Source: Acinetobacter bereziniae (lineage in GTDB: Bacteria; Pseudomonadota; Gammaproteobacteria; Pseudomonadales; Moraxellaceae). From it: DNA of 33,014 nucleotides. Position numbers and translations under genes: made by a program. The stretch covers positions 1 to 33,014 of the forward strand of contig WNDP01000038.1 in NCBI GenBank assembly GCA_009912575.1. Reading direction: 5' to 3'. The notes beneath the pieces are model-generated. The model was given only the letters and a program-made list of their open reading frames with translations. It ran no database searches and had not been told where the DNA came from. Positions 28,884 through 30,732 of the stretch are shown piece by piece. Each line of letters starts with the position of its first letter. The first letter of the stretch is position 1.

Positions 28884-28897
28884 ATAAGATATATTTT
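28869..28897 (+). promoter_or_regulatory. Probable promoter of the flavohemoglobin-like gene
   Basis: TTGCAA (28869-28874), a 17-base spacer and TATTTT (28892-28897) fit sigma-70 spacing. Both NsrR-type boxes overlap it, so an NsrR dimer would shut it off. Confidence 0.4.
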
Positions 28898-28908
28898 AAA
28901 TACATCTT
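28886..28908 (+). promoter_or_regulatory. NsrR-type operator box
   Basis: The halves AAGATATATTT and AAATACATCTT with one base between match about 19 of 22 positions of the E. coli-type NsrR consensus (inverted AAGATGCATTT). It lies 28 bases before the start codon of the flavohemoglobin-like gene, and a gene for NsrR itself is at 30289 in this window. Matched by eye; binding is inferred. Confidence 0.65.
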
Positions 28909-28936: not shown

Positions 28937-29698
28937 ATGACTCCACAGCATATTGAACTTGTAAAATCTACAGTCCCTGTACTTCGTGAAAATGGTGTTG
29001 CATTAACCAGCTATTTTTATAAAAGAATGTTGGGTAATAATCCTGAGCTGAACAATATTTTCAACTTAGATAGTCAAAATTCAGGTCGCCAACCTCGTGC
29101 ACTTGCAGCAGCAGTTTTGGCTTATGCTGAAAATATTGAAAATCCTTCTGTTTTAGCAAAAGCAGTTCAACACATTACGACTAAACATGTCAGCTTAAAT
29201 ATTCAGCCCGACCAGTATTCAATTGTCGGTGAAAATCTACTTCATTCTATTAGTGAAGTTTTAGATGTGCCGATGGACTCTGAATTAATTGCTGCTTGGA
29301 AAGCTGCGTATTTACAATTGGCAGATATTTTAATCGGCGTTGAAAAGCAAAAATATGAAAATCTAGCAGCTCAAAATGGGGGCTGGACTGGTTGGAGAGC
29401 CTTTATAATTACTGCGATTGAAGTATCTGAAAACAGTAAAATATTTACTGTACAGTCAGCAGATCAGCAAGCTGTTGCGCAGGTCAATGATGGTGAATTC
29501 ATTTCAGTGAAAGTAAAAGTACCGCAAAAAGATATTGAGCAACCTCATCAATACACTGTCCTTCAGGCAACTGAAAACACTTATCAGTTTGCTGTAAAGC
29601 CTGAAGAAAATCACACTGAATATTCTGTATCGAATATTCTATTGAATCACTATCAAATCGGCGATCAAGTTAAATTGACCGCACCACAGGCAAAATAA
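28937..29698 (+). CDS. Short flavohemoglobin-like globin lacking the NAD-binding domain
   Basis: A 253-residue protein related to flavohemoglobin Hmp (about 400 residues). Residues 1-140 are a complete globin: distal Tyr28 and Gln52, proximal His84 in TTKHVSL, Tyr94 in PDQYSIVGE, and Glu136. The FAD-binding barrel follows, from GGWTGWRAFIITAIEV to IGDQVKLTAP. It then ends at the point where the NAD-binding domain should begin. The FAD motif RxYS of Hmp reads HQYT here (204-207), which may weaken FAD binding. Hmp turns nitric oxide into nitrate using NADH; this form would need another electron donor or has another role. A terminator follows 23 bases later and no missing domain remnant is seen downstream. 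Two NsrR-type boxes precede it. Its start has AAGG 8 bases upstream. Confidence 0.85.
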   Translation: MTPQHIELVKSTVPVLRENGVALTSYFYKRMLGNNPELNNIFNLDSQNSGRQPRALAAAVLAYAENIENPSVLAKAVQHITTKHVSLNIQPDQYSIVGENLLHSISEVLDVPMDSELIAAWKAAYLQLADILIGVEKQKYENLAAQNGGWTGWRAFIITAIEVSENSKIFTVQSADQQAVAQVNDGEFISVKVKVPQKDIEQPHQYTVLQATENTYQFAVKPEENHTEYSVSNILLNHYQIGDQVKLTAPQAK

Positions 29699-29720
29699 TC
29701 CCCATTACGATATTGCCGAC

Positions 29721-29764
29721 CTGTAATGTATGGATCGTGATTTACCCATACATTACGGTTTTTT
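29721..29764 (+). terminator. Terminator of the flavohemoglobin-like gene
   Basis: The 11-bp stem GTAATGTATGG/CCATACATTAC has a 12-base loop and is followed, after GG, by six T. Confidence 0.85.
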
Positions 29765-29867: not shown

Positions 29868-30215
29868 ATGCAACGTATCTTATTGATTTTCAGTCTAAGC
29901 TTAAGTTTGTTATCTTTTTCAGTCATTGCTCATACAGCAGAAGTAAAATCTTCTACGCAATGTAAAAATCAAGCAATCAAACAAGCCGCCAAGCTTTTAG
30001 AGTTTCATTTCGGCCCAGATGAGCGTATTGAAATTCAACCAGAAGTCAAAGCACTTCCCTCAATCATTAATCCACGTAATAAAAAGCAAAGATTCGATGT
30101 TTTGGAAGTCTGGGGCTACATATATAAAGGCCAATATCGTATGCGCTTTGAGTATTTTAGCCAAAGTGATTGCATACTCATGGGACAAGAGATTCTCGAA
30201 TATGCCAGTTTATAG
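29868..30215 (+). CDS. Small exported protein of unknown function
   Basis: 115 residues with a clear Sec signal peptide: basic MQR, hydrophobic core to about residue 20, and a likely cleavage site after AHTA (near 24). There is no lipobox. The mature part has two Cys (32 and 102), which would form one disulfide in the periplasm, and a compact basic and aromatic body (VWGYIYKGQYRMRFEYF). I recognise no family. It lies between the flavohemoglobin-like gene and nsrR on the same strand, but a terminator separates it from the former. Confidence 0.65.
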   Translation: MQRILLIFSLSLSLLSFSVIAHTAEVKSSTQCKNQAIKQAAKLLEFHFGPDERIEIQPEVKALPSIINPRNKKQRFDVLEVWGYIYKGQYRMRFEYFSQSDCILMGQEILEYASL

Positions 30216-30288: not shown

Positions 30289-30732
30289 ATGCAACTTAAC
30301 AAATTTACCGACTATGCCTTACGTATTTTAATGTACATCTCTTCCCCAAAAGATGTGCCTTATACCATTGCCGAAATTGCACAAGATCTAAATGTTTCTC
30401 AGAATCATTTGGTAAAAATTGTGCATTTCATGGGCAAGCAAGATTGGTTAATTACCACCCGTGGTAAAGGTGGAGGCTTACGTCTAAACCCAGCAATTCT
30501 TGAGTTTCGATTGGGTTATATCGTACGCATTCTACAAGGTGATGCACAAATTGTTGAGTGCAATACACCGCCATGTGTACTTCGCCCTCGTTGCGGTTTA
30601 AAAGGTATTTTAGATCAAGCCGTTGAACAGTTTTATCAAAGTTTAGATCAATATACGGTTGCGGATGTTTTAAATACGCCACCACAACAACCAACCTTCG
30701 TAAACTCTCCTATCCCAAATCTAAATATGTAA
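30289..30732 (+). CDS. nsrR: Nitric-oxide-sensing repressor NsrR
   Basis: 147 residues of the Rrf2 family. It starts MQLNKFTDYALRILMYISS like E. coli NsrR (MQLTSFTDYGLRALIYM). The winged helix carries VSQNHLVKIVHFM and TRGKGGGLRL. The iron-sulfur ligands Cys91, Cys96 and Cys102 fall in CNTPPCVLRPRC with the same spacing as in E. coli NsrR. The cluster reacts with nitric oxide and repression is lifted. Two NsrR-type boxes upstream of the flavohemoglobin-like gene are probable targets. The ATG is preceded by no strong ribosome site. Confidence 0.93.
   Translation: MQLNKFTDYALRILMYISSPKDVPYTIAEIAQDLNVSQNHLVKIVHFMGKQDWLITTRGKGGGLRLNPAILEFRLGYIVRILQGDAQIVECNTPPCVLRPRCGLKGILDQAVEQFYQSLDQYTVADVLNTPPQQPTFVNSPIPNLNM

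Follow-up and report, generated by a model that had tools for sequence, protein, structure and literature searches.

Single-domain globins, among them Vitreoscilla Vgb and Campylobacter Cgb, have no reductase half of their own, and no settled account of their re-reduction in the cell is known to us. Cgb is reported to turn nitric oxide (NO) into nitrate (PMC6950321) and to be controlled by NssR (PMC3820574). Incomplete flavohemoglobins (FHb*) have also been described in fungi, where they are reported in 21 of 29 Saccharomycotina genomes and consist of a globin and part of the reductase, with the C-terminal NAD part missing and with an unidentified N-terminal part (PMC3287990). In Acinetobacter baumannii, the gene A1S_3085, which we infer to be a copy of the short form described here, is named a putative flavohemoprotein or flavohemoglobin/NO dioxygenase in two papers (PMC4192346, PMC7315123), yet what bears this name would be a shortened version without the NAD(P)H domain and probably without flavin. 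No paper describing the Acinetobacter short form, and no biochemical data on any of its members, were found in the open text of PubMed Central, a collection that subscription papers mostly fall outside.

The gene under study was found in Acinetobacter bereziniae (assembly GCA_009912575.1, contig WNDP01000038.1), in a stretch of 33,014 nucleotides that was analysed as a whole and is called the window below. The explanation that we favour, and consider reasonably probable, is that its product is a settled, flavin-free derivative of flavohemoglobin, which would serve as an NO-induced NO dioxygenase or scavenger in the manner of Cgb and Vgb and would depend on a non-dedicated electron donor.

The short gene, its product and its spread

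The features of the locus are the following:
28886..28908, no strand assigned: NsrR-type palindrome AAGATATATTTTAAATACATCTT, an exact match that ends 28 bp before the start codon
28937..29371, forward strand: globin domain, residues 1-145, with an intact heme pocket (Pfam; invariant Y28, Q52, H84, Y94 and E136; model and Foldseek)
29372..29698, forward strand: FAD-type barrel, residues 146-253, without the flavin-site residues, up to the end of the protein (Pfam; residue counts; dN/dS 0.043)
29718..29764, forward strand: intrinsic terminator, hairpin and T run (fold energy)
30289..30732, forward strand: nsrR, the gene of an Rrf2-family repressor (PF02082, 103.1 bits)

The open reading frame at 28937-29698 encodes a protein of 253 aa, in which Pfam recognises Globin (27-130, 3.1e-13) and FAD_binding_6 (158-252, 1.8e-6, 28.7 bits) and lists no NAD domain. 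The match to Hmp starts at residue 2-4 of the short protein, and with the NCBIfam flavohemoprotein model NF009805, of which it covers 3-251 of 399, it reaches 271 bits where 432 are required. The original prediction, made from the letters of the window, of a protein that stops at the close of the FAD barrel is confirmed: the NAD(P)H domain is missing C-terminally, and the protein ends where the NAD domain of Hmp would start. A predicted model of the window protein (pLDDT 91.6) keeps both globin and barrel, and over the two it matches 1cqx in Foldseek (42% identity, TMq 0.90) and overlays 1cqx, 1gvh and yeast Hmp (TMq 0.90-0.91), with the reservation that the barrel of the model may be partly borrowed, since 13 of the 33 rows of the model alignment are segments of full-length relatives. 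The terminator expected directly after the gene is also present, as a hairpin at 29718-29760 with a T run at 29759-29764 (-17.9 kcal/mol, z -4.06, none of 200 shuffles as stable); a separate terminator pattern scan missed this hairpin, probably because its loop is longer than the limit of the scan. Between the short hmp and nsrR lies a gene of 115 residues (29868-30215) that has no Pfam or NCBIfam family match and, by eye, a signal-peptide-like start; among the loci listed, it occurs only in the window and in its nearest relative (L031/L132, one genome).

The distribution of the gene was surveyed with one genome per species in 349 genomes of the family, of which 176 belong to the genus of the window (G000-G059 and G096-G211). 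The 253-aa protein was matched in 262 of the 349 genomes, with 9 of the 176 genus genomes giving no match. Among the matches listed, the short form is found in 83 of the 176 genus genomes (84 genes) and full-length frames span 396-448 residues, and no short form outside Acinetobacter appears among these matches, which include the smaller part of those in other genera. Short-form records in the best 80 of 144 related stretches include those of A. nosocomialis, A. pittii, A. calcoaceticus, A. seifertii, A. lactucae, A. lwoffii and A. gerneri.

Median dN/dS over 180 short-form pairs amounts to 0.014 for the globin and 0.043 for the barrel. The full forms give similar medians, 0.018 and 0.058 (20 pairs each), with 0.051 for their NAD domain (19 pairs). 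Between the window protein and its nearest relative dN/dS is about 0.12 in the barrel and about 0.04 in the globin; the barrel of the window lineage changes faster than the median, yet is constrained. By these comparisons the short form is settled, as had been proposed for the window gene, and is under purifying selection and not decaying; the suggested search for relatives of about 250 residues in Acinetobacter returned the short form in at least 83 of the 176 genus genomes, a spread by which a recent deletion or a sequencing error is rejected.

Some genomes depart from the single intact gene. A. gerneri has two tandem short forms (L134:6004-7722, with the same genes in L035), 62% and 72% identical to the window protein; in the survey of the 176 genomes, the one genome with two short genes in tandem is G115. 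In genome G177 (L135) a frame change interrupts the short gene near residue 211 and there is no second copy, which reflects either an assembly error or a recent loss; this gene was left out of the dN/dS values, of the 77-row column count and of the first part of the residue counts, and was counted up to its own stop elsewhere. A second, full-length hmp is present in 8 of the 83 short-form genomes (G015, G045, G046, G055, G153, G176, G180 and G193; L111-L118), with an exact NsrR-type box at 6 of the 8; near these copies no matches to metC, herA or engB were found, and L118 has an nsrR match of 48%. The genome of A. bereziniae gives a single match to the 253-aa protein, the window gene itself, and the coexistence of a full Hmp as a rule, a possibility raised at the outset, is therefore rejected.

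The hmp locus: NsrR-type box, neighbours and trees

An NsrR palindrome (a predicted site) precedes the short hmp. Nowhere else in the genome of 5.16 Mb is the motif matched exactly, and within three mismatches the window has one match where 0.02 are expected. The original prediction had spoken of NsrR-type boxes in the plural; the link to NsrR stands, while this pattern supports a single box. More generally, a box with at most two mismatches lies ahead of 116 of 119 short hits (exact in 60), and an nsrR match follows within 1.5 kb downstream in 117 of the 119, a set that includes genes fetched more than once (78 distinct proteins) and in which the two exceptions are one gene fetched twice. The median distance from the end of the short gene to the nsrR match is 98 nt. 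The product of nsrR in the window has NsrR (NF008240) as its best NCBIfam model, with 105.9 bits and thus under the cut-off of 182, and reaches 81.9 for the Rrf2 superfamily (TIGR00738), above the cut-off of 73.3.

NsrR-like palindromes also occur ahead of other genes. At L195 (G000:C327:1533), L239 and L241 they lie (with 3, 2 and 2 mismatches) 35-63 bp ahead of a gene for an HPP-CBS membrane protein (Pfam on L239 only), which is a candidate second NsrR target in A. bereziniae and two relatives; in A. bereziniae this gene consists of two overlapping frames and may therefore be interrupted. At L237, L238, L243, L246, L248 and L249, in six Acinetobacter genomes, they lie (with 1-2 mismatches) 225-245 bp ahead of an OmpW-like porin gene (Pfam on L237, the remaining loci by eye).

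Across the loci that were compared (L031-L066, L077 and L111-L150) the usual order is metC - herA-like - hmp - nsrR - engB, where the nsrR match is next downstream in 46 of 47 short-form loci (some fetched twice) and herA is absent in several. Full-length genes of the genus at their main locus (20 genes: L119-L130, L139-L141 and L143-L147) stand before nsrR and engB in 17 cases, the exceptions being L120, L122 and L147. Relatives with a full gene at the locus had been named in advance as the sign of a recent deletion; such relatives do exist, but the short form is common to at least 83 of the 176 genus genomes and is not a recent deletion. Because an outgroup genome (G219, L142) has the order metC - full hmp - nsrR - engB, the full form is likely to be ancestral at the hmp locus.

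In the gene tree (40 short and 17 full sequences) the short forms lie on one side of a branch, with supports of 100/99 for the globin alone and 100/100 with the barrel. They do so too in a wider hmp tree (support 80), which after thinning held 44 of 78 short forms, 18 of 29 full forms from the genus and the neighbour genus (L142) and 22 of 43 other full forms. Several independent truncations are thus unsupported. In the tree of EngB and MetC, 41 short and 16 full rows are interleaved, with 6 switches between the forms, at least 4 of them forced by well supported branches. A single short clade is rejected by EngB and MetC (AU p 5e-95) and by NsrR (p 6e-5), and is not rejected by HerA (AU p 0.079). 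The gene tree (57 sequences) and the tree of EngB and MetC (57 loci with both engB and metC) rest on overlapping but not identical sets; L136, L137, L119 and L142 were left out of both (long branches or other genus), and the tests with NsrR and HerA also went without L138.

We interpret this as two ancient hmp versions that have probably passed from species to species, always at one position, while the repressor gene next to them remained in place. An early duplication followed by differential loss, or movement of the flanking genes, could also account for the interleaving. The full forms of Acinetobacter group in the wider tree with Pasteurellaceae rows and not with the short forms, so that the short version may have been imported from elsewhere instead of descending from a truncated resident gene. 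These alternatives concern the origin of the short form and leave its proposed function untouched. Because one version or the other occupies the NsrR-linked slot, the short form most likely still serves in NO defence, the same job as that of full Hmp. Related species hold either form at one locus with the same kind of repressor, which opens a comparison between them of the electron source and of what a reductase half contributes.

Heme pocket, flavin site and electron donor

The residue counts come from aligned sequences of 78 distinct short and 72 distinct full forms. All of them have Y28, Q52, H84, Y94 and E136 (78 of 78 and 72 of 72), which had rightly been predicted to be intact. By Pfam and the alignment, the short protein has a 3/3 globin domain with Tyr, Gln, proximal His, Tyr and Glu, which we take to be the globin hallmarks of flavohemoglobins (Tyr B10, Gln E7, proximal His, Tyr and Glu). 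Among the columns with at least 95% invariance in the 72 full forms, 45 of 49 globin columns and 13 of 28 barrel columns survive in 90% or more of 77 short forms. The residues that only the short forms conserve are partly clustered at D45, R51, P53 and R54, beside the distal Q52, as could be expected of a sensor or regulator of NO or O2 that relays its ligand state through the empty barrel, and the available part of the fungal study names no enzymatic role for the incomplete FHbs (PMC3287990). However, the NsrR-type box and the locus in common with full Hmp point to an effector job, and the adjoining NsrR is already a likely sensor; we regard a sensor as unlikely, though the best placed of the competing readings.

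The FAD arginine, R204, is found in 72 of 72 full and in none of 78 short forms, where it is replaced by Q (49), K (16), H (8), L (4) or E (1). In Hmp structures FAD is held by the motif Arg-x-Tyr-Ser. The short protein does not have the Arg-x-Tyr-Ser/Thr motif of Hmp; in the window protein it reads H204-Q-Y-T, the altered form that had been pointed out, with a T207 that also occurs in 36 of 72 full forms. S169 and H236 are likewise present in 72 of 72 full and 0 of 78 short forms, R217 in 0 of 77, Y206 in 5 of 78 (the window protein among the five) and S232 in 16 of 78. K221 is kept in 50 and N233 in 64 of 78 short sequences, and V191, V220, V231, L235, A249 and P250, hydrophobic and turn residues of the barrel, are retained in 97-99% of the short rows. 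Since the FAD arginine and other flavin-site residues are lost in all 78 while the heme-pocket residues stay, the short protein is probably a flavin-free two-domain hemoglobin and not an FAD-carrying half, although weak or altered flavin binding may persist in some short forms, as Y206, K221 and N233 remain in part.

The original prediction had instead suggested an undescribed split flavohemoglobin, an FAD half awaiting its NAD half, in which the barrel would bind FAD, or else FMN, and receive its electrons from an NAD(P)H reductase that is a protein apart. Such an arrangement would suit a barrel whose fold is kept under selection, as well as Y206 and T207 of the window protein, but it is at odds with the family-wide loss of R204, S169, H236 and R217 and with the search for a partner. 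Specifically, when 58 genomes were searched (E up to 0.001) for the NAD domain of a full-length Acinetobacter Hmp, no free-standing Hmp-type NAD domain was found in 16 short-only genomes, where weak matches all lie in frames of at least 318 residues and G012 gives none; a split-off partner was thus not found at this threshold, except for a contig-end piece in A. bereziniae (L229). We consider a split flavohemoglobin improbable, slightly more so than a sensor.

That the protein would need an outside source of electrons, as had also been proposed, is supported by the missing NAD domain. NAD_binding_1 has five matches in the A. bereziniae genome. One is BenC; two are Fpr-like proteins, closest to ferredoxin-NADP reductase but under the family cut-off of 390 (203.7 and 160.3 bits to NF008178); another carries a 2Fe-2S domain. 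The fifth is the piece L229, close to the end of a contig, whose 178 residues with NAD-domain sequence come closest to a model for an NADH oxidoreductase and have the look of a broken ferredoxin reductase. Other NsrR-like sites, at the 19 loci examined, had no recognisable reductase in their vicinity, and a co-regulated reductase is rejected on this ground; the genes near these sites encode HPP-CBS proteins, OmpW-like porins, one nitronate-monooxygenase-like protein (by eye) or unnamed products, or there are none (Pfam on one gene of each kind). As neither an Hmp-type NAD domain nor a reductase near NsrR-like sites was found, a general, non-dedicated reductase is our guess for the donor.

The distal Tyr/Gln pair, which has a role in NO dioxygenases, is invariant, and this speaks against a main role in stoichiometric binding of NO or O2 or in other globin chemistry (peroxide, sulfide, anaerobic NO reduction). 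One study includes the A. baumannii genes A1S_3085-3086, which are annotated hmp and nsrR, in its list of genes responding to sulfide (PMC7315123), as such a role would have it, but sulfide may act via NsrR, and we give it even less credit than the split form. A decaying pseudogene, of which the interrupted gene of G177 without a second copy might be taken as an example, can practically be set aside in view of the purifying selection on both domains, the presence in at least 83 of 176 genomes and the conserved promoter box.

In the flavin-free derivative that we favour, an ancestral Hmp would have lost its NAD domain and flavin site, while the globin would have stayed active and the empty barrel been retained as a structural or docking module. 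Its domain content, the loss of flavin-site residues, the purifying selection and the NsrR-type box with an nsrR neighbour at the locus of full Hmp are directly observed. No FAD would be bound; NsrR would bind the box, and its repression would be lifted when NO arrives. The globin would then bind O2 and convert NO to nitrate, or merely trap NO, and a non-dedicated donor, perhaps either of the Fpr-like reductases of A. bereziniae, would return the ferric heme to its reduced state. A bolder proposal, which we put forward tentatively and with less confidence than the derivative itself, is that of a class of flavin-free two-domain bacterial hemoglobins, in which the barrel no longer holds a cofactor and has become a platform where a cellular reductase docks, and which alternates with complete flavohemoglobin as two long-lived versions of one NsrR-controlled Acinetobacter locus.

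Comparison with known hemoglobins

With Hmp (1cqx, 1gvh; NF009805) the short form has in common the globin and barrel, the NsrR-type box, the nsrR neighbour and the same locus in sister species, whereas it lacks the NAD domain, has lost the flavin-site residues and stays below the family cut-off. Like the fungal FHb*, it has the globin and the FAD part and is without the NAD part; unlike them, it has no N-terminal extension and sits at an nsrR locus. Because the fungal proteins are reported to lack the same C-terminal part (PMC3287990), the bacterial short form would be of a kind already known.

Vgb and Cgb have a similar heme domain (41% and 40% identity in Foldseek) and likewise no reductase half of their own, but their solved chains have about 140 aa, and the Acinetobacter form adds a barrel of about 105 residues that is under selection. 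A single-domain F globin is a globin alone of about 140 aa, and a protein of 253 aa with a selected barrel is not of this type. Regulation differs as well, Cgb being under NssR and the Acinetobacter short form at a predicted NsrR-type box. On balance, the short form would appear to work most like Cgb and Vgb, but it is not single-domain.
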